NCBI GenBank assembly: GCA_907163375.1
Contig: CAJQUW010007745.1
Location: 84,990-148,989, forward strand
Length of the DNA stretch: 64,000 bases
From: Prostheceraeus crozeri
Lineage: Eukaryota > Platyhelminthes > Polycladida > Euryleptidae
Direction: 5' to 3'
In this document: in pieces, positions 7,483 through 58,635 of the stretch
How positions within the stretch are numbered: the stretch's first letter is position 1
Layout of the letters: each line of letters opens with the position of its first letter
Made by a program: the position numbers and the translations under genes
The notes under the pieces: generated by a model
The model's input: the letters and a program-made list of their open reading frames with translations, nothing else
Database searches by the model: none
What the model was told of the DNA's origin: nothing

Positions 7483-7701
7483 CACTGTAAACTGTCACCT
7501 CCTAAAATCGAAGAAATCTGCATCCTAAAGCGCGACACACTAGAATTTTAGGAGGTTGCGTGAAATAGAATGCTGACATACTAAAGAGAACAATAACACT
7601 AGTGCGCTAGCCTCCTAAAACGCTTTGCTTTAGGATTTTTTTATTAGTTACGAATAGTGTCTCGCTTCAGTGTGTGATTTAGGAGGTGCTGGTTTAGAGT
7701 G
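7483..7701. mobile_element. 219-bp MITE with CACTGTAAAC termini and CCTCCTAAA motifs
   Basis: Left end CACTGTAAACTGTCACCTCC (7,483) matches the complement of the right end GGAGGTGCTGGTTTAGAGTG (ending 7,701) over about 26 bases with few mismatches. TA flanks both sides (7,481-7,482 and 7,702-7,703), fitting a TA target duplication. CCTCCTAAA/TTTAGGAGG recurs four times inside and at the ends, a subterminal-repeat arrangement. The first nine bases of the terminus equal those of the ~1 kb MITE family, though the interiors differ, so one transposase family may mobilise both. Confidence 0.75.
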
Positions 7702-7772
7702 TATGGTATAATACAATGTAATGTAGATATGAACAGGTTGTATTGGATTACATATCATTACTAGTAGCAAAA

Positions 7773-7836
7773 GTGTACATCATTCTGTGACAGTCTCATT
7801 TTCGGCCTCGTTCCCTGCAGAAACTCGTTTTGACTG
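7773..7836 (+). repeat. Solitary 76-bp-satellite monomer
   Basis: About 64 bases match the 76-bp unit (from GTGTACATCATTCTGTG through GCAGAAACTCGTTTTGACTG). It shares the GTGACAG and GTTTTGACTG variants with the first right-arm unit of the foldback element at 8,906, so it probably derives from that local copy rather than from the large array. Confidence 0.75.
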
Positions 7837-7879
7837 AGAATTGACCTGACATGAAAGATGATGAATGATGAACTATGTT

Positions 7880-8247
7880 AGTAGAGCAGGCTAGAAAAGG
7901 TGGTTAGTAAAAGAGAAATTCACGATAACTGTCAAGTTCAGTTCTATTATTGATGGAAGGATTAAATCGATGTATGAAGAATGCCTCACGTAGTCGCAAA
8001 TTAATGTTGTCATCGTCGTGGGCTAGAACTAGCGATGCTGGTGTGTTCCACTTGACAATTTCGAACATGCTTGAAAATAGATGAAGTTGGAGTTGAGAAG
8101 TGCTCTTTAAAGCGGACATAGTGGTCTTATAGTACTGCCTATATAAAATTGGTTACATTTCTTGCAGCCTATTTTATATACAACATTTTTTCGATTACAT
8201 TGCTTCATTCTTTTTTAGTTGTTGACGAAGAGTTTTGTTGCGTCTAG
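7880..8247 (-). pseudogene. PLE GIY-YIG endonuclease segment, decayed
   Basis: Minus-strand sense starting at 8,247 reads TRRNKTLRQQLKKNEA, then in shifted frames a YKIGCKKCNQFYIGSTIRPL block (the GIY-YIG core, near 8,150) and VRFKEH, and ends with RLREAFFIHRFNPSINNRTEL (8,000-7,950), the characteristic end of the PLE endonuclease with its conserved Glu. It is the direct continuation of the RT pseudogene on the far side of the foldback element. Frameshifts separate the blocks. Confidence 0.75.
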
Positions 8248-8250
8248 TTA

Positions 8251-9735
8251 TAGTCCGGCAGCCAGCACGAGTTTCTGCAGGGAACGAGGCCGAAAATGAG
8301 ACTTTCACAGAATGATGTACACCCTATGCCTACTACGAATCGGCACGTCTGCCGAGTTCTAGTGAGTTCCTCTTCTTGTCAGACAGGATCAAAGAAAAAC
8401 ACGTGTAAATCCAATGGAACGCAGATTTTTTTTGACAAAAATGAAATTTTCTATGTTTTCTCTGATTAAACGAAAAGTACCAAGCCCAGAGTCATAATTT
8501 TTGGCATGGAATGTCTTCAGGTCATTTCCTATGATGTGCGTGTGCTATTATCAATCTTCTGATTGACAATGCATGTGAGAATGTGGTTGAATGCGGATAA
8601 AGTTGCTCAAAATGTTTGTGTTTGCCGACATTAAGAGGCTCGCCAAATCTAAATGTGGTTAGCTTTATAGACAGGGATGCATGAAAATGAAAGGAAATGA
8701 CCTGAAGATATTTTATGCCAAAAATTATGACTTTGCGCTTATTACTTTTCGTTTAATCAGAGAAAACATGCAAAATTTCATTTTAGCCAAAAAACTGCAA
8801 TCTGCGTCCCATTGGATTTACATGTGTTTTTCTTTGATCTTGTCTGACAAGAAGAGGAACTCACTAGAGCTCGGCAGACGTGCCGATTCGCAGTAGGCAT
8901 AGAGTGTACATCATTCTGTGACAGTCTCATTTTCGGCCTCGTTCCCTGCAGAAACTCGTTTTGACTGCCGGACTATGAGGTGTACATCATTCTGTGAAAG
9001 TCTCACTTTCGGCCTCGTTCCCTGCAGAAACTCGTTTTGACTGCCGGACTATGAGGTGTACATCATTATGTGAAAGTCTCATTGTCGGCCTCGCTCCCTG
9101 CAGAAACTCGTTTTGACTGCCGGACTATGAGGTGTACATCATTCTGTGAAAGTCTCATTGTCGGCCTCGCTCCCTGCAGAAACTCGTGCTGGCTGCCGGA
9201 CTATGAGGTGTACATCATTCTGTGAAAGTCTCATTGTCGGCCTCGTTCCCTGCAGAAACTCGTGCTGGCTGCCGGACTATGAGGTGTACATGATTCTGTG
9301 AAAGTCTCACTTTCGGCCTCGTTCCCTGCAGAAACTCGTTCTGGCTGCCGGACTATGAGGTGTACATCATTGTGTGAAAGTCTCATTGTCGGCCTCGTTT
9401 CCTGCAGAAACTCGTGCTGGCTGCCGGACTATGAGGTGTACATCATTGTGTGAAAGTCTCATTGTCGGCCTCGTTTCCTGCAGAAACTCGTGCTGGCTGC
9501 CGGACTATGAGGTGCACATCATTCTGTGAAAGTATCATTGTCGGCCTCGTTCCCTGCAGAAACTCGTTCTGGCTGCCGGACTATGAGGTGCACATCATTC
9601 TGTGAAAGTATCATTGTCGGCCTCGTTCCCTGCAGAAACTCGTTCTGGCTGCCGGACTATGAGGTGTACATCATTGTGTGAAAGTCTCATTGTCGGCCTC
9701 GTTCCCTGCAGAAACTCGTTCTGGCTGCCGGACTA
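8251..9735. mobile_element. Foldback transposon with 76-bp tandem units in its inverted arms (locus 1)
   Basis: The element begins TAGTCCGGCAGCC and ends GGCTGCCGGACTA, flanked by TTA on both sides (8,248-8,250; 9,736-9,738). The left arm is one 76-bp unit in minus orientation (8,251-8,325) and the right arm is 11 units in plus orientation (8,906-9,735). Between them a core of about 580 bp has ~210-bp inverted halves (8,326-8,540 against 8,690-8,905) around a ~145-bp asymmetric loop. No transposase is encoded. Removing it with one TTA joins the PLE frame on the minus strand (NVRL to TRRNKTLRQQ). The structure resembles Drosophila FB and Tetris elements; relationship by descent is not implied. 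Confidence 0.85.
8906..9735 (+). repeat. Tandem array of 11 x 76-bp units (right arm of locus 1)
   Basis: Eleven head-to-tail units of the same 76-bp repeat as the large array at 20,869. The first few carry a CGTTTTGACTGCC variant; later ones carry CGTGCTGGCTGCC or CGTTCTGGCTGCC. Confidence 0.9.
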
Positions 9736-9738
9736 TTA

Positions 9739-10760
9739 ATCGAACGTTGAGTTAATGTTTATGAAAAATCTGTTTTATTCGAGAATCAGTATTGTCCGTA
9801 ATGTATGGAAAAGGGAAATGCAAAACATCCTTATTGACCCATTGATTGCTTTGTTTTCTCGTTTTCTTTCGTCGTTGGAGTTTCATGTTCGAAGATCTTA
9901 TGACTTGCTCGTTATATCCGTTCATGCGTAATAAGTTGTCAAATTCTTCTTTGTGCTTTTTGAAAGTAAAACTTTCTGAGCATCGTTCAGAAATTCTTTT
10001 CGTCTCATTCAGTATGAAATTCATTTTCGTCTTTGTTGTATATGTGATTTTTAGAATGTACAAAAATGTTCTTATTTGCAGCTTTCTTATAGAATTCAAA
10101 CTGAAAGTCATTATATGAATTTATAGTGATTGTGAAGTCGAGAAGACTCAGAGTTTTATTATCATTATTAGGATGCTCAACTTCAAATTTTATGTCTAGA
10201 TGTTGAGCATATAGAGATTGTAAAAGATCCAGAGCCTGTTGTTCATTGTTTGCTAAGGCAAAACAATCATCTACGTATCACTTGAATAAGGACAGATGGT
10301 TGATATTTTGAAGAGCATTATTTTCGATTGTATCAATGAAAATTGAAGCCAGTAATCCAGAAAGGGAGTTACCAATCGGTAGGCCTTTGATTTGTTGGTA
10401 AATTGTACCTTGATAATGAAAAAATGTAAAAGGTCTTGTATGTTGTTCAACGATAAACCTTTGATATAGAGAATATTATTGTCTTCAAGCTTGGTAATTA
10501 CGGCCGATATAGCGTCATCAATTGGAATCGAAGTATACATTGATGCGATGTCATAACTGCAGGGATAAAGTTGCTCACTTGTGGTGGTTTTATCGAATTG
10601 ATTAGCTGAGGACTTGATTCAATGTGTGATGGAATATTTTTGAGCATATGCGATGGTAAGTTTGTCAATAACCATGATAATTTCTCGGTTGCTCCTTTTA
10701 TGTTTGAGACAATGGGTCGGATTTTCAATTGGTCAGTTATCGTGAATTTCTCTTTTACTA
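9739..10760 (-). pseudogene. PLE reverse transcriptase, decayed
   Basis: Minus-strand reading gives, in order, KIRPIVSNIKGATEKLSWLL (about 10,725; RT motif 1), SYDIASMYTSIPIDDAI (about 10,540; motif A with its catalytic Asp, reached after a frame change), GLPIGNSLSGLLASIFID (10,385; PLE-type fingers motif), YVDDCFAL (10,280; catalytic YxDD), LLDFTI and a FYKKA-like thumb block (10,130-10,070). The coding sense then runs to about 9,745 and, after removal of the foldback element, continues into the endonuclease. The enzyme would copy its own RNA onto exposed chromosomal 3' ends. At least one stop and several frame changes are present. Confidence 0.75.
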
Positions 10761-19591: not shown

Positions 19592-20343
19592 TAGTCCTGC
19601 AACCAGCATGAGTTTCTGCAGGGAACGAGGCCGACAGTGAGACTTTCACAGAATAATGTACACCTCACAGTCCGGCAGCCAGCACGAGTTTCTGCAGGGA
19701 ACGAGGCCGACAATGAGACTTTCACAGAATGATGTACACCTCACAGTCCGGCAGCCTGCACGAGTTTGTGCAGGGAACGAGGCCGACAATGAGACTTTCA
19801 CAGAATGATGTACACCTCATAGTCCGGCAGCCAGAGCGAGTTTCTGCAGGGAACGAGGCCGACAATGAGACTTTCACAGAATGATGTGCACCTCATAGTC
19901 CGGCAGCCAGCACGAGTTTCTGCAGGGAACGAGGCCGACAATGAGACTTTCACAGAATGATGTACACCTCATAGTTCGACAGCCAGCACGAGTTTCTGCA
20001 GGGAACGAGGCCGACAATGAGACTTTCACAGAATGATGTACACCTCATAGTGCGGCAACCAGCATGAGTTTCTGCAGGGAACGAGGCCGACAATGAGACT
20101 TTCACAGAATGATGTACACCTCATAGTCCGGCAGCCAGCACGAGTTTCTGCAGGGAACGAGGCCGACAATGAGACTTTCACAGAATGATGTACACCTCAC
20201 AGTCCGGCAGCCAGCACGAGTTTCTGCAGGGAACGAGGCCGACAATGAGACTTTCACAGAATGATGTACACCTCACAGTCCGGCAGCCAGCACGAGTTTT
20301 TGCAGGGAACGAGGCCAAAAATGAGACTTCCACAGAATGATGC
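19592..20343 (-). repeat. Left arm of locus 2: 10 x 76-bp units, minus orientation
   Basis: Ten head-to-tail units beginning with CAGTCCGGCAGCCAGCACG or variants, each containing GAACGAGGCCGACAATGAG. Orientation is opposite to the right arm. Confidence 0.9.
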
Positions 20344-20868
20344 GCACCTATGCTTACTGCGAATTGGCGAGTCTGCCGACTTCAATCAAGTTTCTCTTCT
20401 TGTCAGACTCGATCAAAGAAAACACATGTTAGTCAGGAAACACATGGAGATTGACATTCGATTAAGACGCAAATTGTCGATGTTTCCTTTGATTAAGCGA
20501 AAGGTGCTAAACCTAGAGGCATATTTTTGACATGGAATGTCTTCAAGGCACTTTCTATTATGTACAATTGGCAAGCTGCCTTGTCGGCAAACAAGCACTT
20601 TGAGCAATTGTATCTACATTTAACCACATTCTCGTAGACATTGCCGATCAGAAGCATGACAATCACACTTGCACATCAAAGAAGACATTCAACATCAAAC
20701 AATACGGCTCAAAATTGATTAACTTTACCGCAATGAGCGAAACTTTAGAAAATTTCTTTTTAGCAAAAATCTGCATCCCATTGAATTAATTGGTTCCTTC
20801 TTAGACCCCACCTGACAAGAAGATAGAGCTCGGCAGACGCGTAGATTCGTCGTAGGCATGTAGAGTGC
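20344..20868. repeat. Core of locus 2 with inverted halves
   Basis: Inverted blocks (TGCGAATTGGCGAGTCTGCC near 20,360 against GGCAGACGCGTAGATTCGTCG near 20,830; TTCTTGTCAG against CTGACAAGAAG) surround a non-palindromic loop. The loop matches that of locus 1 in reverse complement (shared TGTCGGCAAACA, TTTGAGCAA and AACCACATTCTC blocks), so the core lies in opposite orientation in the two loci. No protein is encoded. Confidence 0.75.
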
Positions 20869-23800
20869 ACATCATTCTGTGGAAGTCTCATTGTCGGCCT
20901 CGTTCCCTGCAGAAACTCGTGCTGGCTGCCGGACTATGAGGTGTACATCATTCTGTGAAAGTCTCACTGTCGGCCTCGTTCCCTGCACAAACTCGTGCTG
21001 GCTGCCGGACTATGAGGTGTACATCATTCTGTGAAAGTCTCATTTTCGGCCTTGTTCCCTGCAGAAACTCGTGCTGGCTGCCGGACTATGAGGTGTACAT
21101 CATTCTGTGAAAGTCTCACCGTCGGCCTCGTTCCCTGCACAAACTCGTGCTGGCTGCCGGACTATGAGGTGTACATCATTCTGTGAAAGTCTCATTGTCG
21201 GCCTCGTTCCCTGCAGAAACTCGTGCTGGCTGCCGGACTATGAGGTGTACATCATTCTGTGAAAGTCTCACTGTCGGCCTCGTTCCCTGCACAAACTCGT
21301 GCTGGCTGCCGGACTATGAGGTGTACATCATTCTGTGAAAGTCTCATTTTCGGCCTTGTTCCCTGCAGAAACTCGTGCTGGCTGCCGGACTATGAGGTGT
21401 ACATCATTCTGTGGAGTCTCACTGTCGGCCTCGTTCCCTGCACAAACTCGTGCTGGCTGCCGGACTATGAGGTGTACATCATTCTGTGAAAGTCTCATTG
21501 TCGGCCTCGTTCCCTGCAGAAACTCGTGCTGGCTGCCGGACTATGAGGTGTGCATCATTCTGTGAAAGTCTCATTTTCGGCCTCGTTTCCTGCAGAAACT
21601 CGTGCTGGCTGCCGGACTATGAGGTGTACATCATTCTGTGAAAGTCTCATTGTCGGCCTCGTTCCCTGCAGAAACTCGTGCTGGCTGCCGGACTATGAGG
21701 TGTACATCATTCTGTGAAAGTCTCACTGTCGGCCTTGTTCCCTGCACAAACTCATGCTGGCTGCCGGACTATGAGGTGTACATCATTCTGTGAAAGTCTC
21801 ATTTTCGGCCTTGTTCCCTGCAGAAACTCGTGCTGGCTGCCGGACTATGAGGTGTACATCATCCTGTGAAAGTCTCACTGTCGGCCTCGTTCCCTGCACA
21901 AACTCGTGCTGGCTGCCGCACTATGATGTGTGCATCATTCTGTGAAAGTCTCATTTTCGGCCTTGTTCCCTGCAGAAACTCGTGCTGGCTGCCGGACTAT
22001 GAGGTGTACATCATTCTGTGAAAGTCTCATTGTCGGCCTCGTTCCCTGCAGAAACTCGTGCTGGCTGCCGGACTATGAGGTGTGCATCATTCTGTGAAAG
22101 TCTCATTGTCGGCCTCGTTCCCTGCAGAAACTCGTGCTGGCTGCCGGACTATGAGGTGTACATCATTCTGTGAAAGTCTCATTGTCGGCCTCGTTCCCTG
22201 CAGAAACTCGTGCTGGCTGCCGGACTATGAGGTGTGCATCATTCTGTGAAAGTCTCATTGTCGGCCTCGTTCCCTGCAGAAACTCGTGCTGGCTGCCGGA
22301 CTATGAGGTGTACATCATTCTGTGAAAGTCTCATTGTCGGCCTCGTTCCCTGCAGAAACTCGTGCTGGCTGCCGGACTATGAGGTGTACATCATTCTGTG
22401 AAAGTCTCACTGTCGGCCTCGTTCCCTGCACAAACTCATACTGGCTGCCGGACTATGAGGTGTACATCATTCTGTGAAAGTCTCATTCTCGGCCTTGTTC
22501 CCTGCAGAAACTCGTGCTGGCTGCCGCACTATGATGTGTGCATCATTCTGTGAAAGTCTCATTGTCGGCCTCCTTCCCTGCAGAAACTCGCTCTGGCTGC
22601 CGGACTGTGAGGTGTGCATCATTCTGTGAAAGTCTCATTGTCGGCCTTGTTCCCTGCACAAACTCGTGCTGGCTGCCGGACTATGAGGTGTACATCATTC
22701 TGTGAAAGTCTCATTTTCGGCCTTGTTCCCTGCAGAAACTCGTGCTGGCTGCCGGACTATGAGGTGTACATCATTCTGTGAAAGTCTCATTGTCGGCCTC
22801 GTTCCCTGCAGAAACTCGTGCTGGCTGCCGGACTATGATGTGTACATCATTCTGTGAAAGTCTCATTGTCGGCCTCGTTACCTGCAGAAACTCGTGCTGG
22901 CTGCCGGACTATGAGGTGTACATCTTTCTGTGAAAGTCTCATTGTCGGCCTCCTTCCCTGCAGAAACCCGTGCTGGCTGCCGGACTATGAGGTGTACATC
23001 ATTCTGTGAAAGTCTCATTGTCGGCCTCGTTCCCTGCAGAAACTCGTGCTGGTTGCCGGACTGTGAGGTGTGCATCATTCTGTGAGAGTCTCATTGTCGG
23101 CCTCGTTCCCTGCAGAAACTCGTGCTGGCTGCCGGACTATGAGGTGTACATCATTCTGTGAAAGTCTCACTGTCGGCCTCGTTCCCTGCACAAACTCATG
23201 CTGGCTGCCGGACTATGAGGTGTACATCATTCTGTGAAAGTCTCATTGTCGGCCTCGTTCCCTGCAGAAACTCGTGCTGGCTGCCGGACTATGAGGTGTA
23301 CATCATTCTGTGAAAGTCTCATTTTCGGCCTTGTTCCCTGCAGAAACTCGTGCTGGCTGCCGCACTATGATGTGTGCATCATTCTGTGAAAGTCTCATTG
23401 TCGGCCTCGTTCCCTGCAGAAACTCGCTCTGGCTGCCGGACTGTGAGGTGTGCATCATTCTGTAAAAGTCTCATTGTCGGCCTTGTTCCCTGCAGAAACT
23501 CGTGCTGGCTGCCGGACTATGAGGTGTACATCATTCTGTGAAAGTCTCACTGTCGGCCTCGTTCCCTGCAGAAACTCGTGATGGCTGCCGGACTATGAGG
23601 TGTACATCATTCTGTGAAAGTCTCATTGTCGGCCTCGTTCCCTGCAGAAACTCGTGCTGGCTGCCGGACTATGAGGTGTACATCATTCTGTGAAAGTCTC
23701 ATTGTCGGCCTCGTTCCCTGCAGAAACTCGCTCTGGCTGCCGGACTATGAGGTGTACATCATTCTGTGAAAGTCTCACTGTCGGCCTCGTTCCCTGCACA

Positions 23801-26800
23801 AACTCGTGCTGGCTGCCGGACTATGAGGTGTATATCATTCTGTGAAAGTCTCATTGTCGGCCTCGTTCCCTGCAGAAACTCGTGCTGGCTGCCGCACTAT
23901 GATGTGTGCATCATTCTGTGAAAGTCTCATTGTCGGCCTCCTTCCCTGCAGAAACTCGCTCTGGCTGCCGGACTGTGAGGTGTGCATCATTCTGTGAAAG
24001 TCTCATTGTCGGCCTCCTTCCCTGCAGAAACTCGCTCTGGCTGCCGGACTATGAGGTGTACATCATTCTGTGAAAGTCTCACTGTCGGCCTCGTTCCCTG
24101 CAGAAACTCGTGCTGGCTGCCGGACTATGAGGTGTACATCATTCTGTGAAAGTCTCATTTTCGGCCTTGTTCCCTGCACAAACTCATGCTGGCTGCCGGA
24201 CTATGAGGTGTACATCATTCTGTGAAAGTCTCATTGTCGGCCTCGTTCCCTGCAGAAACTCGTGCTGGCTGCCGGACTATGATGTGTACATCATTCTGTG
24301 AAAGTCTCATTGTCGGCCACGTTCCCTGCAGAAACTCGTGCTGGCTGCCGGACTATGAGGTGTACATCATTCTGTGAAAGTCTCATTGTCGGCCTCCTTC
24401 CCTGCAGAAACCCGTGCTGGCTGCCGGACTATGAGGTGTACATCATTCTGTGAAAGTCTCATTGTCGGCCTCGTTCCCTGCAGAAACTCGTGCTGGTTGC
24501 CGGACTGTGAGGTGTGCATCATTCTGTGAAAGTCTCATTGTCGGCCTCGTTCCCTGCAGAAACTCGTGCTGGCTGCCGGACTATGAGGTGTACATCATTC
24601 TGTGAAAGTCTCACTGTCGGCCTCGTTCCCTGCACAAACTCGTGCTGGCTGCCGGACTATGAGGTGTACATCATTCTGTGAAAGTCTCACTGTCGGCCTC
24701 GTTCCCTGCACAAACTCATGCTGGCTGCCGGACTATGAGGTGTACATCATTCTTTGAAAGTCTCATTTTCGGCCTTGTTCCCTGCAGAAACTCGTGCTGG
24801 CTGCCGGACTATGAGGTGTACATCATTCTGTGAAAGTCTCATTGTCGGCCTCGTTCCCTGCAGAAACTCGTGCTGGCTGCCGGACTATGAGGTGTACATC
24901 ATTCTGTGAAAGTCTCATTGTCGGCCTCGTTCCCTGCAGAAACTCGTGCTGGCTGCCGGACTATGAGGTGTACATCATTCTGTGAAAGTCTCACTGTCGG
25001 CCTCGTTCCCTGCACAAACTCATGCTGGCTGCCGGACTATGAGGTGTACATCATTCTGTGAAAGTCTCACTGTCGGCCTTGTTCCCTGCAGAAACTCGTG
25101 CTGGCTGCCGGACTATGAGGTGTACATCATTCTGTGAAAGTCTCATTGTCGGCCTCGTTCCCTGCAGAAACTCGTGCTGGCTGCCGGACTATGAGGTGTA
25201 CATCATTCTGTGAATGTCTCATTGTCGGCCTCGTTCCCTGCAGAAACTCGTGCTGGCTGCCGGACTATGAGGTGTACATCATTCTGTGAAAGTCTCACTG
25301 TCGGCCTCGTTCCCTGCACAAACTCGTGCTGGCTGCCGGACTATGAGGTGTACATCATTCTGTGAAAGTCTCATTTTCGGCCTTGTTCCCTGCAGAAACT
25401 CGTGCTGGCTGCCGCACTATGATGTGTGCATCATTCTGTGAAAGTCTCATTGTCGGCCTCGTTCCCTGCAGAAACTCGCCCTGGCTGCCGGACTGTGAGG
25501 TGTGCATCATTCTGTAAAAGTCTCATTGTCGGCCTTGTTCCCTGCAGAAACTCGTGCTGGCTGCCGGACTATGAGGTGTACATCATTCTGTGAAAGTCTC
25601 ACTGTCGGCCTCGTTCCCTGCAGAAACTCGTGCTGGCTGCCGGACTATGAGGTGTACATCATTCTGTGAAAGTCTCATTGTCGGCCTCGTTCCCTGCAGA
25701 AACTCGTGCTGGCTGCCGGACTATGAGGTGTACATCATTCTGTGAAAGTCTCATTGTCGGCCTCGTTCCCTGCAGAAACTCGCTCTGGCTGCCGGACTAT
25801 GAGGTGTACATCATTCTGTGAAAGTCTCATTGTCGGCCTCGTTCCCTGCAGAAACTCGTGCTGGCTGCCGCACTATGATGTGTGCATCATTCTGTGAAAG
25901 TCTCATTGTCGGCCTCGTTCCCTGCAGAAACTCGCTCTGGCTGCCGGACTGTGAGGTGTGCATCATTCTGTGAAAGTCTCATTGTCGGCCTTGTTCCCTG
26001 AAGAAACTCGTGCTGGCTGCCGGACTATGAGATGTACATCATTCTGTGAAAGTCCCACTGTCGGCCTCGTTCCCTGCACAAACTCGTGCTGGCTGCCGGA
26101 CTATGAGGTGTACATCATTCTCTGAAAGTCTCATTGTCGGCCTCGTTCCCTGCAGAAACTCGTGCTGGCTGCCGGACTATGTGGTGTACATCATTCTGTG
26201 AAAGTCTCATTGTCGGCCTCGTTCCCTGCAGAAACTCGTGCTGGCTGCCGGACTATGAGGTGTGCATCATTCTGTGAAAGTCTCATTGTCGGCCTCGTTC
26301 CCTGCAGAAACTCGTGCTGGCTGCCGGACTATGAGGTGTACATCATTCTGTGAAAGTCTCATTGTCGGCCTCGTTCCCTGCAGAAACTCGTGCTGGCTGC
26401 CGGACTATGAGGTGTACATCATTCTGTGAAAGTCTCACTGTCGGCCTCGTTCCCTGCACAAACTCATGCTGGCTGCCGGACTATGAGGTGTACATCATTC
26501 TGTGAAAGTCTCATTTTCGGCCTTGTTCCCTGCAGAAACTCGTGCTGGCTGCAGCACTATGATGTGTGCATCATTCTGTGAAAGTCTCATTGTCGGCCTC
26601 GTTCCCTGCAGAAACTCGCTCTGGCTGCCGGACTGTGAGGTGTGCATCATTCTGTGAAAGTCTCATTGTCGGCCTTGTTCTCTGCAGAAACTCGTGCTGG
26701 CTGCCGGACTATGAGGTGTACATCATTCTGTGAAAGTCTCACTGTCGGCCTCGTTCCCTGCACAAACTCGTGCTGGCTGCCGGACTATGAGGTGTACATC

Positions 26801-29800
26801 ATTCTGTGAAAGTCTCATTTTCGGCCTTGTTCACTGCAGAAACTCGTGCTGGCTGCCGGACTATGAGGTGTACATCATTCTGTGAAAGTCTCACTGTCGG
26901 CCTCGTTCCCTGCAGAAACTCGTGCTGGCTGCCGGACTATGATGTGTACATCATTCTCTGAAAGTCTCATTGTCGGCCTCGTTCCCTGCAGAAACTCGTG
27001 CTGGCTGCCGGACTGTGAGGTGTACATCATTCTGTGAAAGTCTCATTGTCGGCTTCCTTCCATGCAGAAACTCGTGCTGGCTGCCGGACTATGAGGTGTA
27101 CATCATTCTGTGAAAGTCTCATTGTCGGCCTCGTTCCCTGCAGAAACTCGTGCTGGTTGCCGGACTGTGAGGTGTGCATCATTCTGTGAGAGTCTCATTG
27201 TCGGCCTCGTTCCCTGCAGAAACTCGTGCTGGCTGCCGGGCTATGAGGTGTACATCATTCTGTGAAAGTCTCACTGTCGGCCTCGTTCCCTGCACAAACT
27301 CATGCTGGCTGCCGGACTATGAGGTGTACATCATTCTGTGAAAGTCTCATTTTCGGCCTTGTTCCCTGCAGAAACTCGTGCTGGCTGCCGGACTATGAGG
27401 TGTACATCATTCTGTGAAAGTCTCACTGTCGGCCTCGTTCCCTGCACAAACTCATGCTGGCTGCCGGACTATGATTTGTACATCATTCTGTGAAAGTCTC
27501 ATTTTCGGCCTTGTTCCCTGCAGAAACTCGTGCTGGCTGCCGCACTATGATGTGTGCATCATTCTGTGAAAGTCTCATTGTCGGCCTCCTTCCCTGCAGA
27601 AACTCGCTCTGGCTGCCGGACTGTGAGGTGTGCATCATTCTGTGAAAGTCTCATTGTCGGCCTTGTTCCCTGCAGAAACTCGTGCTGGCTGCCAGACTAT
27701 GAGGTGTACATCATTCTGTGAAAGTCTCACTGTCGGCCTCGTTCCCTGCACAAACTCGTGCTGGCTGCCGGACTATGAGGTGTACATCATTCTGTGAAAG
27801 TCTCATTTTCGGCCTTGTTCCCTGCAGAAACTCGTGCTGGCTGCCGGACTATGAGGTGTACATCATTATGTGAAAGTCTCATTGTCGGCCTCGTTCCCTG
27901 CAGAAACTCGTGCTGGCTGCCGGACTATGATGTGTACATCATTCTGTGAAAGTCTCATTGTCGGCCTCGTTCCCTGCAGAAACTCGTGCTGGCTGCCGGA
28001 CTATGAGGTGCACATCATTCTGTGAAAGTCTCATTTTCGGCCTCCTTCCCTGCAGAAACTCGTGCTGGCTGCCAGACTATGAGGTGCACGTCATTCTGTG
28101 AAAGTCTCATTGTGGGCCTCGTTCTCTGCAGAAACTCGTGCTGGCTGCTGCCAGACCATGAGGTATGCATCATTCTGTGAAAGTCTCATTGTCGGCCTCG
28201 TTCCCTGCACAAACTCGTGCTGGCTGCCGGACTATGAGGTGTACATCATTCTGTGAAAGTCTCATTGTCGGCCTCGTTCCCTGCAGAAACTCATGCTGGC
28301 TGCCGGACTATGAGGTGTACATCATTCTGTGAAAGTCTCATTTTCGGCCTTGTTCCCTGCAGAAACTCGTGCTGGCTGCCGGACTATGAGGTGTACATCA
28401 TTCTGTGAAAGTCTCATTGTCGGCCTCGTTCCCTGCAGAAACTCGTGCTGGCTGCCGGACTATGAGGTGTACGTCATTCTGTGAAAGTCTCATTGTCGGC
28501 CTCGTTCCCTGCAGAAACTCGTGCTGGCTGCCGGACTATGAGGTGTACATCATTCTGTGAAAGTCTCACTGTCGGCCTCGTTCCCTGCAGAAACTCGTGC
28601 TGGCTGCCGGACTATGAGGTGTACATCATTCTGTGAAAGTCTCATTTTTGGCCTTGTTCCCTGCAGAAACTCGTGCTGGCTGCCGGACTATGAGGTGTAC
28701 ATCATTCTGTGAAAGTCTCATTGTCGGCCTCGTTCCATGCAGAAACTCGTGCTGGCTGCCGGACTATGAGGTGTACATCATTCTGTGAAAGTCTCATTGT
28801 CGGCCTCGTTCCCTGCAGAAACTCGTGCTGGCTGCCGGACTATGAGGTGTACATCATTCTGTGAAAGTCTCATTGTCGGCCTCGTTCCCTGCACAAACTC
28901 GTGCTGGCTGCCGGACTATGAGGTGTACATCATTCTGTGAAAGTCTCAGTGTCGGCCTCGTTCCCTGCAGAAACTCGTGCTGGCTGCCGGACTATGAGGT
29001 GTACATCATTCTGTGAAAGTCTCATTGTCGGCCTCGTTCCCTGCAGAAACTCGTGCTGGCTGCCGGACTATGAGGTGTACATCATTCTGTGAAAGTCTCA
29101 CTGTCGGCCTCGTTCCCTGCAGAAACTCGTGCTGGCTGCCGGACTATGAGGTGTACATCATTCTGTGAAAGTCTCACTTTCGGCCTCGTTCCCTGCAGAA
29201 ACTCGTGCTGGCTGCCGGACTATGAGGTGTACATCATTCTGTGAAAGTCTCATTGTCGGCCTCGTTCCATGCAGAAACTCGTGCTGGCTGCCGGACTATG
29301 AGGTGTACATCATTCTGTGAATGTCTCATTGTCGGCCTCGTTCCCTGCAGAAACTCGTGCTGGCTGCCGGACTATGAGGTGTACATCATTCTGTGAAAGT
29401 CTCACTGTCGGCCTCGTTCCCTGCACAAACTCGTGCTGGCTGCCGGACTATGAGGTGTACATCATTCTGTGAAAGTCTCATTTTCGGCCTCTCTCCCTGC
29501 AGAAACTCGTGCTGGCTGCCGCACTATGAGGTGTACATCATTCTGTGAAAGTCTCATTGTCGGCCTCGTTCCCTGCAGAAACTCGCACTGGCTCCCGGAC
29601 TGTGAGGTGTGGCATCATTCTGTAAAGTCTCATAGTCGGCCTCGTTCCCTGCAGAAACTCGTGCTGGCTGCCGGACTATGAGGTGTACATCATTCTGTGA
29701 AAGTCTCACTGTCGGCCTCGTTCCCTGCAGAAACTCGTGCTGGCTGCCGGACTATGAGGTGTACATCATTCTGTGAAAGTCTCATTTTCGGCCTCGTTCC

Positions 29801-32800
29801 CTGCAGAAACTCGTGCTGGCTGCCGGACTATGAGGTGTACATCATTCTGTGAAAGTCTCATTGTCGGCCTCGTTCCCTGCAGAAACTCGCTCTGGCTGCC
29901 GGACTATGAGGTGTACATCATTCTGTAAAAGTCTCATTTGCGGCCTCCTTCCCTGCAGAAACTCGTGCTGGCTGCCGCACTATGATGTGTACATCATTCT
30001 GTGAAAGTTTCATTGTCGGTCTCGTTCCCTGCAGAAACTCGTGCTGGCTGCCGGACTATGAGGTGTACATCATTCTGTGAAAGTCTCACTCTCGGCAATG
30101 TTCCCTGCAGAAACTCGTGCTGGCTGCCGGACTATGAGGTGTACATCATTCTGTGAAAGTCTCATTGTCGGCCTCGTTCCCTGCACAAACTCGTGCTGGC
30201 TGCCGGACTATGAGGTGTACATCATTCTCTGAAAGTCTCATTTTCGGCCTTGTTCCCTGCAGAAACTCGTGCTGGCTGCTGGACTATGAGGTGTACATCA
30301 TTCTGTGAAAGTCTCACTGTCGGCCTCGTTCCCTGCACAAACTCATGCTGGCTGCCGGACTATGAGGTGTACATCATTCTGTGAAAGTCTCATTTTCGGC
30401 CTTGTTCCCTGCTGAAACTCGTGCTGGCTGCCGCACTATGATGTGTGCATCATTCTGTGAAAGTCTCATTGTCGGCCTCGTTCCCTGCAGAAACTCGTGC
30501 TGGCTGCCGGACTATGAGGTGTACATCATTCTGTGAAAGTCTCACTGTCGGCCTCGTTCCCTGCACAAACTCATGCTGGCTGCCGGACTATGAGGTGTAC
30601 ATCATTCTGTGAAAGTCTCATTTTTGGCCTTGTTCCCTGCAGAAACTCGTGCTGGCTGCCGGACTATGAGGTGTACATCATTCTGTGAAAGTCTCATTGT
30701 CGGCCTCGTTCCATGCAGAAACTCGTGCTGGCTGCCGGACTATGAGGTGTACATCATTCTGTGAATGTCTCATTGTCGGCCTCGTTCCCTGCAGAAACTC
30801 GTGCTGGCTGCCGGACTATGAGGTGTACATCATTCTGTGAATGACTCACTGTCGGCCTCGCTCCCTGCTCACACTCGTGCTGGCTGCCGGACTATGAGGT
30901 GTACATCATTCTGTGAAAGTCTCATTTTCGGCCTCGTTCCCTGCAGAAACTCGTGCTGGCTGCCGGACTATGAGGTGTGCATCATTCTGTGAAAGTCTCA
31001 TTGTCGGCCTCGTTCCCTGCAGAAACTCGTGCTGGCTGCCGGACTGTGAGGTGTACATCATTCTGTGAAAGTCTCATTGTCGGCCTTGTTCCCTGCAGAA
31101 ACTCGTGTTGGCTGCCGGACTGTGAAGTGTACATCATTCTGTGAAAGTCTCATTGTCGGCCTCGTTCTCTGCAGAAACTCGTGCTGGCTGCCGGACTGTG
31201 AGGTGTACATCATTCTGTGAAAGTCTCATTGTCGGCCTCGTTCCCTGCAGAAACTCGTGCTGGCTGCCGGACTATGAGGTGTATATCATTCTGTGAAAGT
31301 CTCATTGTCGGCCTCGTTCCCTGCAGAAACTCGTGCTGGCTGCCGGACTATGAGGTGTACATCATTCTGTGAAAGTCTCATTGTCGGCCTCGTTCCCTGC
31401 AGAAACTCGTGCTGGCTGCCGCACTATGATGTGTGCATCATTCTGTGAAAGTCTCATTGTCGGCCTCGTTCCCTGCAGAAACTCGCTCTGGCTGCCGGAC
31501 TATGAGGTGTGCATCATTCTGTGAAAGTCTCATTGTCGGCCTTGTTCCCTGCAGAAACTCGTGCTGGCTGCCGGACTATGAGATGTACATCATTCTGTGA
31601 AAGTCTCACTGTCGGCCTCGTTCCCTGCACAAACTCGTGCTGGCTGCCGGACTATGAGGTGTACATCATTCTCTGAAAGTCTCATTTTCGGCCTTGTTCC
31701 CTGCAGAAACTCGTGCTGGCTGCCGGACTATGAGGTGTACATCATTCTGTGAAAGTCTCATTGTCGGCCTCGTTCCCTGCACAAACTCGTGCTGGCTGCC
31801 GACTATGAGGTGTGCATCATTCTGTGAAAGTCTCATTGTCGGCCTCGTTCCCTGCAGAAACTCGTGCTGGCTGCCGGACTATGAGGTGTACATCATTCTG
31901 TGAAAGTCTCATTGTCGGCCTCGTTCCCTGCAGAAACTCGTGCTGGCTGCCGGACTATGAGGTGTACATCATTCTGTGAAAGTCTCACTGTCGGCCTCGT
32001 TCCCTGCACAAACTCATGCTGGCTGCCGGACTATGAGGTGTACATCATTCTGTGAAAGTCTCATTGTCGGCCTCCTTCCCTGCAGAAACCCGTGCTGGCT
32101 GCCGCACTATGATGTGTGCATCATTCTGTGAAAGTCTCATTGTCGGCCTCGTTCCCTGCAGAAACTCGCTCTGGCTGCCGGACTGTGAGGTGTGCATCAT
32201 TCTGTGAAAGTCTCATTGTCGGCCTTGTTCTCTGCAGAAACTCGTGCTGGCTGCCGGACTATGAGGTGTACATCATTCTGTGAAAGTCTCACTGTCGGCC
32301 TCGTTCCCTGCACAAACTCGTGCTGGCTGCCGGACTATGAGGTGTACATCATTCTGTGAAAGTCTCATTGTCGGCCTCGTTACCTGCAGAAACTCGTGCT
32401 GGCTGCCGGACTATGAGGTGTACATCATTCTGTGAAAGTCTCATTGTCGGCCTCGTTCCCTGCAGAAACTCGTGCTGGCTGCCGGACTATGATGTGTACA
32501 TCATTCTCTGAAAGTCTCATTGTCGGCCTCGTTCCCTGCAGAAACTCGTGCTGGCTGCCGGACTATGAGGTGTACATCATTCTGTGAAAGTCTCATTGTC
32601 GGCCTCCTTCCATGCAGAAACTCGTGCTGGCTGCCGGACTATGAGGTGTACATCATTCTGTGAAAGTCTCATTGTCGGCCTCGTTCCCTGCAGAAACTCG
32701 TGCTGGCTGCCGGACTGTGAGGTGTGCATCATTCTGTGAGAGTCTCATTGTCGGCCTCGTTCCCTGCAGAAACTCGTGCTGGCTGCCGGATTATGAGGTG

Positions 32801-35597
32801 TACATCATTCTGTAAAAGTCTCACTGTCGGCCTCGTTCCCTGCACAAACTCATGCTGGCTGCCGGACTATGAGGTGTACATCATTCTGTGAAAGTCTCAT
32901 TTTCGGCCTTGTTCCCTGCAGAAACTCGTGCTGGTTGCCGGAATATGCCATGCACATCATTCTGTGAAAGTCTCATTTTCGGCCTCGTTCCCTGCAGAAA
33001 CTCGTGCTGGCTGCCGCACTATGATGTGTGCATCATTCTGTGAAAGTCTCATTGTCGGCCTCGTTCCCTGCAGAAACTCGTGCTGGCTGCCGGACTATGA
33101 GGTGTACATCATTCTGTGAAAGTCTCATTTTCGGCCTCGTTCCCTGCAGAAACTCGTGCTGGCTGCCGGACTGTGAGGTGTACATCATTCTGTGAAAGTC
33201 TCATTGTCGGCCTCGTTCCATGCAGAAACTCGTGCTGGCTGCCGCACTATGATGTGTGCATCATTCTGTGAAAGTCTCATTGTCGGCCTCGTTCCCTGCA
33301 GAAGCTCGTGCTGGCTGCCGGACTATGTGGTGTACATCATTCTGTGAAAGTCTCATTGTCGGCCTCGTTCCCTGCAGAAACTCGTGCTGGCTGCCGGACT
33401 ATGAGGTGTACATCATTCTGTGAAAGTCTCATTGTCGGCCTCGTTCCCTGCAGAAATTCGTGCTGGTTGCCGGACTGTGAGGTGTGCATCATTCTGTGAA
33501 AGTCTCATTGTCGGCCTTGTTCCCTGCAGAAACTCGTGCTGGCTGCCGGACTATGAGGTGTACATCATTCTGTGAAAGTCTCACTGTCGGCCTCGTTCCC
33601 TGCACAAACTCATGCTGGCTGCCGGACTATGAGGTGTACATCATTCTGTGAAAGTCTCATTTTCGGCCTTGTTCCTGCAGAAACTCGTGCTGGCTGCCGG
33701 ACTATGAGGTGTACATCATTCTGTGAAAGTCTCATTGTCGGCCTCCTTTCCTGCAGAAACTCGTGCTGGCTGCCGGACTATGAGGTGTACATCATTCTGT
33801 GAAAGTCTCATTGTCGGCCTCGTTCCCTGCAGAAACTCGTGCTGGTTGCCGGACTGTGAGGTGTGCATCATTCTGTGAGAGTCTCATTGTCGGCCTCGTT
33901 CCCTGCAGAAACTCGTGCTGGCTGCCGGACTATGAGGTGTACATCATTCTGTGAAAGTCTCACTGTCGGCCTCGTTCCCTGCACAAACTCATGCTGGCTA
34001 CCGGACTATGAGGTGTACATCATTCTGTGAAAGTCTCACTGTCGGCCTCGTTCCCTGCAGAAACTCGTGCTGGCTGCCGGACTATGAGGTGTACATCATT
34101 CTGTGAAAGTCTCATTGTCGGCCTCGTTCCCTGCATAAACTCGTGCTGGCTGCCGGACTATGAGGTGTACATCATTCTGTGAAGGTCTCATTGTCGGCCT
34201 CGTTCCCTGCAGAAACTCGTGCTGGCTGCCGGACTATGAGGTGTACATCTTTCTGTGAAAGTCTCATTGTCGGCCTCGTTCCCTGCACAAACTCGTGCTG
34301 GCTGCCGGACTGTGAGGTGTACATCATTCTGTGAAAGTCTCATTGTCGGCCTCGTTCCATGCAGAAACTCGTGCTGGCTGCCGCACTATGATGTGTGCAT
34401 CATTCTGTGAAAGTCTCATTGTCGGCCTCGTTCCCTGCAGAAGCTCGTGCTGGCTGCCGGACTATGAGGTGTACATCATTCTGTGAAAGTCTCATTGTCG
34501 GCCTCGTTCCCTGCAGAAACTCGTGCTGGCTGCCGGACTATGAGGTGTACATCATTCTGTGAAAGTCTCATTGTCGGCCTCGTTCCCTGCAGAAACTCGT
34601 GCTGGTTGCCGGACTGTGAGGTGTGCATCATTCTGTGAAAGTCTCATTGTCGGCCTCGTTCCCTGCAGAAACTCGTGCTGGCTGCCGGACTATGAGGTGT
34701 ACATCATTCTGTGAAAGTCTCACTGTCGGCCTCGTTCCCTGCACAAACTCATGCTGGCTGCCGGACTATGAGGTGTACATCATTCTGTGAAAGTCTCATT
34801 TTCGGCCTTGTTCCTGCAGAAACTCGTGCTGGCTGCCGGACTATAAGGTGAACATCATTCTGTGAAAGTCTCATTGTCGGCCTCGTTCCCTGCAGAAACT
34901 CGTGCTGGCTGCCGGACTGTGAGGTGTACATCATTCTGTGAAAGTCTCATTGTCGGCCTCGTTCCCTGCAGAAACTGGTGCTGGCTGCCGGACTATGAGG
35001 TGTACATCATTCTGTGAAAGTCTCATTTTCGGACTTATTCCTGCAGAAACTCGTGCTGGTTGCCGGAATATGCCATGCACATCATTCTGTGAAAGTCTCA
35101 TTTTCGGCCTCGTTCCCTGCAGAAACTCGTGCTGGCTGCCGGACTATGAGGTGTACATCATTCTGTGAAAGTCTCATTGTCGGCCTCGTTCCCTGCAGAA
35201 ACTCGTGCTGGCTGCCGGACTATGAGGTGTACATCATTCTGTGAGAGTCTCATTGTCGGCCTCGTTCCCTGCAGAAACTCGTGCTGGCTGCCGGACTGTG
35301 AGGTGTACATCATTCTGTGAAGGTCTCATTGTCGGTCTCGTTCCCTGCAGAAACTCGTGCTGGCTGCCGGACTATGAGGTGTACATCATTCTGTGAAAGT
35401 CTCATTGTCGGCCTCGTTCCCTGCAGAAACTCGTGCTGGTTGCCGGGATATGCCATGCACATCATTCTGTGAAAGTCTCATTTTCGGCCTCGTTCCCTGC
35501 AGAAACTCGTGCTGGCTGCCGGACTATGAGGTGTACATCATTCTGTGAAAGTCTCATTGTCGGCCTCGTTCCCTGCACAAACTCGTGCTGACTGCCG
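20869..35597 (+). repeat. Satellite array: about 194 x 76-bp units (right arm of locus 2)
   Basis: Unit consensus contains GTGTACATCATTCTGTG, AAAGTCTCATTGTCGGCC, TCGTTCCCTGCAGAAACTCG and TGCTGGCTGCCGGACTATGA. Unit length is very constant: the marker CTGCCGCAC (GCAGCAC at one site) recurs from 21,913 to 27,537 at exact multiples of 76. Single-base length changes occur in a few units (for example near 31,800 and 33,675). Short open frames of 60-76 codons in it arise because 76 is not divisible by three and are not genes. Confidence 0.95.
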
Positions 35598-43138: not shown

Positions 43139-44534
<1,396 letters not shown>

Positions 44535-50405: not shown

Positions 50406-52810
50406 CTTGCGCTTCAATGGTTCCAAAAATCTTGATCGAGGCTACACTCCAAAAATAAGAATAACCAGTATTACTCCAGATTGACTCAACAGTATCTATG
50501 GAAATTTTCTCTTATCACTTTCAGACCTTTGTTGATATTCCACCGATAACTTTTTTAGTTGTACAATTTCTTTCTGGCTCCCGGCAATGAAATCTAAACT
50601 TATAAAGGATTTATTATGCAATTTGGAATCCAGAAAAGTTTTGGTAGTTTAAGGTCCTTGTCACTAACATTAATATTAAAAGTTTGGATTTCATATCTTT
50701 TAACGTGTTTAGTAAGGACTTCCTTATCAGAAATAAGCTCAGGTTTATAAGTTGCATTGCCTACTGCAGTGGAAGAATCTAAGGTCTAAGAGCAGTGATG
50801 TCAGAGAAACACGCACCCCAAGCTCGTTGGGATCCATCAGGACAGTTTCTTGAGAATTAAGGACCTTGTTTACCAGGTCTGAGACCACAAGGTCTGATCC
50901 TGTAACTGCTTGTACTTACTCTTACATCGACAAGCATCGACCAAAACCTTGGGGAAACAGAACGACTAATCAATGTCAAAACCAAGCTCGTCCATCAGAT
51001 TTTGAGATAGACTTTTTTACATATGAAACTAAAGTTGTTGGATGCTTTATCGAAGGCACGACTATCAAGTTTTTATGGAATCTTGCCAAGCTCCATATCA
51101 ACACACAACGAGAGCCTAGCCATTAACTTTCACCACCAACTTCTTACAACGAAAGCATGCGGTGGCTTTACTAACCATCATGACCTGTTTTTTCCAAATA
51201 GAGAAGTCATTCACCGTATTAAGTGAAAGCGAGACATGGGACACAAAACAAAAAACGAGACTATAAGAGTTATCTATGAGAATCGCTTGATACTCTTTTT
51301 GATCTGGAGTTCATGATATAAGGACCTAACAATAACTCGCTGTGATTTAGTGCCAGAAACGCGAATATACTCCTGAGAACCATGGATCATTAATTATATC
51401 TACATTACCGGTAAAAACATGCCCAAAAGGCTCATAAACGAGAACAGGTCATCGAGTCCCAGCTGCAATCGCTTCATTTAAAAATGCCAACATCTTCCCT
51501 GAATTGACCACTATATACAGAACGCTTATGAGCATAATTGAAGCGCAAATTCAAAACACAATAGGGATATAAAGCCTTATGCGGTTACAGCTTTGGGATG
51601 ATATAATATTCACTTAATTTCTGTAACTAAGCCAACACTTTTATCATTACAATACCGAAGGTAAGCATGAAGTATTTGTCACTAACTGAGCCTTCGAAAG
51701 AATCACCCAATGCTTTTTTGTCTTCGGTAGAGCGTATCCACTTGTGAGTGTTCGGAAAATAATCTACTATGACCATATGTTTTGTCAAACACGAAAAGAT
51801 ATGTCAGTTCGACAGATCAAGAAGCCTAGAATAACCGAGCAGCTTATAAGCATGCTATCACTCATCGATTTCCTAGCAACAAAAAAAGAAATTCTTAATT
51901 TGATGCTCCGTTCATCAACTCTTGTAACGTGACTCCAGAGAGACTCTCCACAACAACTCTTAGATGTGAGATATTGACTTTTGCTACCACCCGACTTTCC
52001 ACAGGCCATGGCTCTCTTACGTCCCTGCTCCACTGAGAACTCCAACCATGAAAATGAAATTTGCATTGTTCTGAGAGAGCGCAAGCCTCCGCCTAAACAC
52101 ACTGTCCATTTGCACACCCAAAGGATGCAAGGTGTTCAGCGTTCTTATATGAAAATCTTCCTTACTGTTAAGCTCGAAGGCAATTTCTGTATCAGATTTA
52201 TTACGAACATCGACAAAGTCAATAATTTGTATACTTACATCATCCCAACTGTGATTAGAACTATTAAAATGATTACTTAAATACGTATTGAGATGATTCT
52301 TTTGAACAGACTGCCGATGCCCATTAAGTCTACAATGTAATGGCTGTTTTGTCTGTCCAACATACTGGACCCCACATGATTGACATGTGATCAAATATAT
52401 TACATGCCTACTCTTACACGAGAAACTACTAGGATAATTTAAAACGAACCGTCTGCCGGTACTAAAACTCTTAAAAGTAGTATTAGTGTCAAGAGATTTA
52501 CAACATAGGCATCTTTTGCTGCCACAGACATCAACACTACTGACGCATGTGGAGGGCGCTATCCACTCCTTCGCATTAACGTCATACACTTTAGCTTGCA
52601 TTATATCCATATTTCAAATGCCAGGACCCCATACTAAGCAAGGAATCCTTTCAGAGGTTGGACTTTAGATCCTTGCTATCTAATTGGTACTTAGACCTAA
52701 CACAACTACCGATGTCATTAATAAACCGCTATAAGAATGTGAGGCTTTCGCCTGCCAGCAGAGGTCCAGTAAGCGGGGTCATAAAACCACCAGCATCTGC
52801 AGACTTACTG
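50406..52810 (-). mobile_element. Permuted PLE, partial copy X (GIY-YIG plus 5' half of RT)
   Basis: It aligns with 54,630-56,720 of copy Y. It keeps the GIY-YIG frame (52,017-52,610), the linker and the RT N-terminal part, then ends abruptly near 50,406. A ~180-bp scrambled insertion at about 50,785-50,965 is absent from Y. Indels are dense except in the block 52,117-52,770. Confidence 0.7.
52017..52610 (-). CDS. GIY-YIG endonuclease domain of permuted PLE (copy X, 197 aa open)
   Basis: Starting at a Met (MDIMQAKVYDVNAKEW), the frame has a Cys cluster KRCLCC preceded by DVCGS (a CxxC-type zinc-binding knuckle), then SRHVIYLITCQSCGVQYVGQ (the GIY-YIG core), HCRLNGHRQSV with the catalytic Arg region, and IRTLNTLHPLG with the C-terminal Asn block. 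This nuclease nicks DNA to prime reverse transcription. It opens the reading sense of the element; the RT sense comes downstream on the same strand. The frame decays after the domain (stop after VLSGAGT). Confidence 0.75.
   Translation of the reverse strand: MDIMQAKVYDVNAKEWIAPSTCVSSVDVCGSKRCLCCKSLDTNTTFKSFSTGRRFVLNYPSSFSCKSRHVIYLITCQSCGVQYVGQTKQPLHCRLNGHRQSVQKNHLNTYLSNHFNSSNHSWDDVSIQIIDFVDVRNKSDTEIAFELNSKEDFHIRTLNTLHPLGVQMDSVFRRRLALSQNNANFIFMVGVLSGAGT

Positions 52811-58569: not shown

Positions 58570-58635
<66 letters not shown>

Follow-up and report, generated by a model that had tools for sequence, protein, structure and literature searches.

The transposon at positions 8251-9735 of the window, by which we denote the whole 64,000-nucleotide stretch of Prostheceraeus crozeri DNA that was analysed, belongs to a family whose usual form is a 727-bp near-palindromic foldback MITE in which each side has a single 73-bp end, and the arrays of 76-bp satellite units seen in this copy are an extra that is carried by a minority of the family. 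The 76-bp unit consists of the outermost 73 bp of the MITE together with a 3-bp spacer in the position of a target duplication, and the array-bearing copies are scattered over the tree of the element cores. The birth of satellite DNA and its spread to unlinked sites pose a long-standing question, and in most instances the traces are too old to be legible. Here the parent MITE, arrays both short and long, the 3-bp boundaries and a revealing spacer are all preserved in a single genome, and the window thereby offers an uncommonly legible example of satellite DNA arising from a mobile element, in which one origin versus many, and travel by transposition versus travel by recombination, become answerable by counting, and in which the duplication-length spacer provides a concrete clue to the founding event.

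The element at 8251-9735 is a transposon copy flanked by TTA, its left end at 8251 reading TAGTCCGGCAGCC and its right end at 9735 reading GGCTGCCGGACTA (Table 1). Its arms are of opposite polarity, the left arm having a single unit and the right arm 11 (period 76, 96% matches), and its core is palindromic, as the segments 8250-8427 and 8799-8976 are 94% complementary and the segments 8428-8542 and 8680-8794 are 86% complementary. When folded as single-stranded DNA, 8251-8976 gave -299 kcal/mol as compared to a mean of -80 for 20 shuffles (z -29.9), while no Rfam family was detected at the gathering threshold in 7500-10200. The repeat and complementarity analyses corroborate the first-pass annotation, which had described a foldback transposon with a palindromic core and opposite-polarity arms made of a 76-bp repeat (one unit left, 11 right).

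Table 1. Coordinates of the two array-bearing copies and of the associated 64-bp insertion in the window
Feature	Position	Strand	Basis
64-bp copy of 8904-8967 (innermost right unit of 8251-9735), in host sequence	7773..7836	-	unit and paralog comparison
Left target-site duplication TTA	8248..8250	.	sequence; empty paralogous sites
Left arm, single 73-bp terminus	8251..8323	+	repeat and inverted-arm comparison
727-bp-type foldback MITE proper, 725 bp here	8251..8975	+	94% to 21-copy consensus; fold
Near-palindromic core between both termini	8324..8902	+	inverted-arm and consensus comparison
Innermost right terminus, end of MITE proper	8903..8975	-	unit comparison
Remainder of right arm: ten 76-bp units (73-bp terminus with 3-bp spacer, TCA on minus strand); 760 bp	8976..9735	-	
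Right target-site duplication TTA	9736..9738	.	sequence; empty paralogous sites
Second array-bearing copy (more diverged): left array, 10 units	19592..20350	+	repeat and unit comparison
Core of second copy, decayed, 68% to consensus core	20348..20859	-	consensus comparison
Right array of second copy, ~194 units, 14.7 kb	20865..35597	-	repeat and unit comparison

The borders of the element were established through empty paralogous sites, for which the two host flanks were used as separate queries against the whole genome (2.05 Gb in 14,165 contigs), the best 40 candidates being scored per query. Both flanks matched side by side at 15 paralogous sites, and at 13 of these window positions 8250 and 9740, read by coordinates only, map two bases apart (C3113, C2487, C5048, C9220, C11737, C4126, C12290 twice, C6925, C2141, C5491, C764 and C8050); at the other two, C8576 and C3666, the right match starts 28 bases late and the junction does not align. 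A spacing of two bases is that of the empty site predicted by a duplicated TTA, which establishes that the insertion is real, and the borders and the TTA duplication that had been proposed previously are thereby confirmed by independent means. The left flank contains a frameshifted GIY-YIG-like stretch that shares 36% identity, across 39 residues, with two GIY-YIG stretches in other parts of the window, where 52017-52613 has a Pfam GIY-YIG match. This would fit a Penelope-like host element and is in keeping with the host reading sense that the first-pass annotation had assigned across the junction, while the right-flank open reading frame at 9752-10120 gave no Pfam match.

The arm of this element has also acted as a source of copied sequence. 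Located 415 bp upstream, in the element's own neighbourhood, is a 64-bp tract identical to part of the innermost right unit (Table 1), which the first-pass annotation had not recorded, the next best ungapped full-length match among the sampled units having two mismatches. The insert lacks a target duplication, adds a net 62 bp and is absent from all 18 of 18 paralogous sites compared, at which the flanking positions are 16 bases apart (17 sites) or 17 bases apart (one site) as against 78 in the window; this comparison was conducted with query 7704-7772 and with site C2605 left out on account of overlapping matches. The tract at 7773-7836 is a templated insertion, its unchanged sequence indicating that the arm has been a template for copying, presumably by repair synthesis, though this event does not by itself show how arrays form. 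A query covering 7560-7960, which that of 7704-7772 replaced, was swamped by a separate and abundant repeat that extends up to ~7704; the best 40 of 3,121 candidates for this repeat are all 97-100% identical over ~145 bp or more, and judged from these matches it appears to be a very abundant and young family.

The MITE consensus, derived from 21 copies, is 727 bp long and self-complementary at 88% along its whole length. The exact 13-bp terminus is present 24,875 times in the genome, array units included, as compared to six times for a reversed control, and it is preceded by TTA 1,183 times, by TAA 1,147 times and by TCA 12,912 times (reversed control for TCA plus terminus, 0). Exact termini not preceded by TCA number 11,963, and 2,330 of them (19.5%) follow TTA or TAA as against 3.1% if triplets were uniform; TTA is a preferred target, not an obligatory one. 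Pairing of the 83 TTA and 99 TAA ends listed on contigs up to C1260 gave, among the matches listed, 37 correctly oriented TTA...TAA pairs, 34 of which measure 637-741 bp, with one mispaired. Thirty loci were selected by TTA plus terminus only, and 19 of these contain a complete copy bounded by a single terminus at either side (at L032 the complete copy is the neighbour of the selected end), one (L054) holds a four-unit array, and the remaining 10 have only truncated, interrupted or decayed matches. A further 20 loci were chosen by the 13-mer alone, as the first-listed places of its matches (C2 to C84), and this set under-represents TTA owing to the omission of TTA copies sampled earlier. Its complete single-unit copies number eight; the 3-bp duplication is exact in six of them (TGT, ATG, TTC, AAT, TAA and ACA) and off by one base in the other two.

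Exact 3-bp duplications located outside the outermost unit were also observed for 12 of the 17 array-bearing copies with both ends readable, these being GTC, TTA (three times, in the window, L012 and L081), TAT, ATG, GAA, GTT, ACG, TGA, TTC and AAT. L012 and L016 each have an altered outermost base at one end, and the duplications of L011, L014, L017, L025 and L054 do not match; L009, L021, L023, L024, L027, L028, L064 and the second copy in the window were left out of the count, having an end that is missing, cut or degenerate, or being a duplicate of L012. The family therefore has the characteristics of a MITE, in being short, non-coding and of high copy number with inverted ends and target duplications of fixed length, as well as those of a foldback element, in having very long inverted arms that are able to fold back. 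In FB foldbacks arms of tandem repeats are the normal state; this is not so for the present family, with its 19 complete single-unit loci as against one array, and satellite arms are a secondary state. The first-pass annotation had taken them to be the design of the family, and had named core copies without 76-bp arms as an observation that would speak against this; such copies were looked for among the 30 loci and the 19 just described were found, so that this part of its description is not supported.

The composition of the unit bears on its origin. The spacer is TCA at 581 of 601 junctions classed as internal in the loci and the window, and at least four of the other 20 are misclassed outer ends, while positions 74-76 within the element proper are CTA in 80 of 116 cases and TCA in none of the 116. 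Positions 16, 44 and 46 distinguish array units from single ends; at position 44, C is present in 65% of 619 array units and A in 40 of 40 single termini, and this absence of C from the single ends argues that single copies are not simply shrunken arrays. The occurrence of one uniform TCA in copies whose own duplications differ suggests that the 76-bp unit most likely arose once. Owing to its length and its place the spacer may be regarded as a captured target duplication, and we infer that TCA was derived from such a duplication and became fixed in a single founding duplication.

A single clade of array-bearing cores was rejected (p-AU 4.35e-07; 17 array and 30 single cores), with at least four changes of state being forced by well-supported branches. 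The number of label changes on the core tree is 14 as against 14.1 with shuffled labels; on the initial 46-row tree it is 16 as against 15.6. Resolution of the core tree is poor, with 8 of 44 inner branches starred and a bootstrap that has not settled, and a true clade of array copies could be disrupted simply by recombination among the palindromic copies. The core tree and the clade test exclude ten cores that were partial, very divergent or duplicates, together with new cores of less than 500 bp or 86%. Well-supported sister pairs of a single and an array-bearing copy, such as L036/L018, were present in the first core tree. Core and unit distances are uncorrelated for 15 elements (Mantel r -0.33, p 0.93), and the net unit difference between elements is ~1% as compared to 10.6% for the cores. 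The unit divergence of 6.3% between elements is close to the 6.9% observed among single termini, and a recent common pool of units is therefore not shown.

The arrays have no clear order of units in common. Over 577 arm pairs, the best-matching runs are only slightly closer between elements than with their order shuffled, at 0.0376 as compared to 0.0386 for three units and 0.0485 as compared to 0.0507 for five, with 2% and 5% of arm pairs, respectively, lying below all 20 shuffles where 5% is expected. The power of this test is low, as is evident from L012 and L021, which are copies of the same insertion (equal unit number; flanks 96% and 92% identical) and which stand out only weakly, 497 of 2,000 shuffles being as low for runs of three units, 21 of 2,000 for runs of five and 3 of 2,000 for the whole array in the same register, a signal no stronger than that of a few unrelated pairs. 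The inner six units of these two copies differ by 0-1 base and the outer four by 2-5, with six extra bases at one outer edge, and this contrast indicates that arrays turn over in place.

Growth of an array inside a resident end would leave parental alleles in its outermost and innermost units. In a hand-checked list of 24 arms, the single-copy allele A at position 16 was present in 9 of 24 outermost units as compared to 40 of 265 middle units (p 0.01), and the innermost units gave no significant excess (12 of 22 as compared to 94 of 265, p 0.11); in an earlier automatic list the outer units gave 3 of 13 as compared to 65 of 477 (p 0.40), and A at position 44 was present in 19 of 32 inner units as compared to 161 of 477 (p 0.007). 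As the two lists give opposite edge patterns, neither was relied on. The array allele at position 16 is present in 15 of 24 outermost units, so that some arrays probably moved as part of the element or underwent conversion afterwards. Arrays on both sides of a core exist, for example in L010 with 16 and 9 units, and one-sided arrays are mostly on the same side of the core, a bias that is uninformative as the sample was drawn with a right-sided query.

By a slight degree we favour a reading in which units from one founder spread among copies of a non-autonomous MITE by homologous exchange and then grew locally, the MITE itself being moved in trans. Mobility of the 727-bp foldback MITE would depend on a transposase that acts in trans by a cut-and-paste mechanism, duplicating 3 bp at many kinds of target with a preference for TTA or TAA. 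A one-time tandem duplication at the end of one copy would have created the 76-bp unit, comprising the outermost 73 bp and TCA in the duplication position. This TCA most likely stems from a target duplication, by one of two routes: the founder's own flank may have been copied during repair, or a MITE may have inserted in the arm of another, just inside position 73, or after base 76 with subsequent loss of the outer remainder. The duplicated ends would subsequently have grown and shrunk by unequal exchange, and arrays would have passed from one dispersed copy to another through homologous exchange at the common 73-bp end, by either ectopic conversion or integration of excised circles. Because an array invariably terminates in a complete end, it may in some copies also have been carried along when the element transposed.

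Three other explanations were weighed against this one. The uniform TCA spacer, the exact 3-bp duplications outside the outermost unit in 12 of 17 array copies and the array allele at position 16 in 15 of 24 outermost units would all agree with one founder array element that spread by transposition only, so that array and core would share their descent, the single-unit copies being either unrelated or contracted; the rejection of one array clade (p-AU 4.35e-07), the lack of correlation between core and unit distances, well-supported single/array sisters such as L036/L018 and, in a low-power test, a unit order that is hardly common to elements make this unlikely. We judge it improbable that satellite arms exist by design, as in FB, with single-unit copies being contracted, which was the view of the first-pass annotation: it would account for tandem units in arms of opposite polarity and for both-sided arrays such as L010 (16 and 9 units), yet 19 of 30 loci with TTA plus terminus are complete single-unit copies as against one array, and the absence of the array allele at position 44 from 40 of 40 single termini is not expected of contracted arrays. 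That each array formed independently at an already inserted copy, its resident end being multiplied by slippage or unequal exchange, seems more improbable still; array-bearing cores from all over the tree would suit it, as would the changes in place documented by L012 and L021 (2-5 bases in outer units, 0-1 in inner ones), but a common TCA spacer and common array alleles despite distant cores and different duplications, combined with the absence of TCA inside the element (0 of 116), make it hard to keep, as it would need a mechanism that always yields TCA. Building on the exchange of units from a single founder, we tentatively put forward, as a possibility we would not yet call probable, a more general picture in which transposition scatters landing pads and recombination fills them, whereby a satellite composed of an end and a captured duplication spreads independently of the cores. 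In this picture every array unit remains a complete transposon end, and so an arm of n units would offer the transposase n possible cut sites.

Among published systems, those found to come closest are Tetris, Galileo and the Xenopus MITE satellites. Passages of PMC4079207 describe Tetris/TIR-220 of Drosophila virilis as non-autonomous and foldback-like, with tandem repeats in the arm that grew to a kb-scale satellite of up to 66 copies, 8-10 bp duplications and no autonomous copy found; TIR-220 lies inside a separate outermost domain with which it has only a 37-bp stretch (~80%) in common. The present family resembles Tetris, as there described, in being a non-autonomous foldback with arm repeats that have grown to satellite arrays and with no autonomous copy found, and differs in that its repeat is the whole outermost end plus a duplication-length spacer and in its 3-bp duplications. 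Galileo of Drosophila, a member of the P superfamily, is presented in passages of PMC3573991 as having long, dynamic inverted arms with tandem repeats, unequal numbers of arm units and a proposed exchange among copies, the repeats of ~210 bp being inside the arm, the duplications 7 bp long and coding copies known. Long repeat-bearing inverted arms with unequal unit numbers on the two sides are thus common to both, as is a proposed exchange among copies, whereas every unit described here includes the terminal bases. For Xstir and miDNA4 of Xenopus, the review PMC12628747 mentions MITE-linked tandem arrays beside copies with few repeats, a situation similar to ours except that those repeats are described as internal to the MITE while here they are the MITE end itself. 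Terminal inverted repeats are named as a source of satellite monomers in two reviews (PMC12628747, PMC9659126), and an end-derived satellite as such is accordingly not new; other TIR-derived satellites are represented by the descriptions in these reviews, and a closer match may exist among them. The former review also relates that double insertion of hobo via target duplications generates tandem elements, a use of the target duplication to build tandems similar to that proposed here for the TCA spacer, although whole elements are in tandem there and only 73 bp of the end here. A satellite unit consisting of a whole outermost transposon end plus a duplication-length spacer, scattered over distant cores, was not found described in the searches of the open-licence literature, which was available mostly as listings and passages.

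The 3-bp duplications, exact in 6 of 8 single-unit and 12 of 17 array copies, are of the length generated by PIF/Harbinger elements, in which the duplication is 3 bp and restricted to TTA/TAA (TWA). They are shorter than the 8-11 bp of Mutator-type foldbacks (FB and Tetris) and than the 7-8 bp of P and Galileo elements. A strict TWA target was rejected, as exact duplications include GTC, ATG, GAA and ACG and as TTA or TAA is present at just 2,330 of 11,963 termini. The suggestion in the first-pass annotation that TTA may point to a PIF/Harbinger-type transposase is therefore weakened: the 3-bp length of the duplication is confirmed, but its sequence is often neither TTA nor TAA. A relaxed PIF/Harbinger-type enzyme, as a candidate only, would suit the 3-bp duplications and the leaning towards TTA and TAA. 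Scored matches to the Harbinger-type transposase domain PF13359 (DDE_Tnp_4) number 150 among 5,513 candidates, eight of these 150 having an internal stop, and Harbinger-type transposases are thus present in the genome. Five such matches occur in a row at G000:C10797:679881-693282, spaced 3,229 to 3,241 bp apart, and perhaps represent a tandem array of whole Harbinger elements.

No autonomous or coding copy with the ends of the family was present among the three long TTA/TAA pairs. In that on C705 (L079, 4.5 kb) the MITE is interrupted by a LINE with Pfam matches to RVT_1 and Exo_endo_phos, that on C1087 (L080) is a MITE with ~1.1 kb of nested sequence whose longest frame is 143 aa with no Pfam match up to E 1, and that on C1141 (L081) is a both-sided array copy. 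The insert in L080 (~705-1805) is, by eye, flanked by repeated GGCATGAC and has CAG...CTG ends, in which it resembles a hAT-type insertion. Loci L044, L051 and L057 share a 16-mer and diverge into other sequence within 16 to ~70 bp; the longest frame of L044 is 84 aa, and two of its frames were searched without a Pfam match. An exact search of the viral contigs with a 21-base pattern of the MITE end gave no match.

A second array-bearing copy, which is absent from the first-pass annotation, was identified at ~19592-35597 (Table 1), and its right array of ~194 units demonstrates, within the same window, that the 76-bp repeat attains satellite size. Within this right array a short pattern of unit types, coded CCAA-CGCG-CCCA, recurs at four sites, which suggests a higher-order repeat. 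Two further repetitive stretches lie elsewhere in the window. That at 57551-63949 comprises 6.4 kb of imperfect GTC/CGTCGTTCGG-like repeats with long Arg/Thr/Asp-rich open frames on the minus strand, and in that at 43140-43978 a 386-bp unit, which is itself composed of long runs of GA and a direct repeat of 36 bp, is present in 2.2 copies at 98%.
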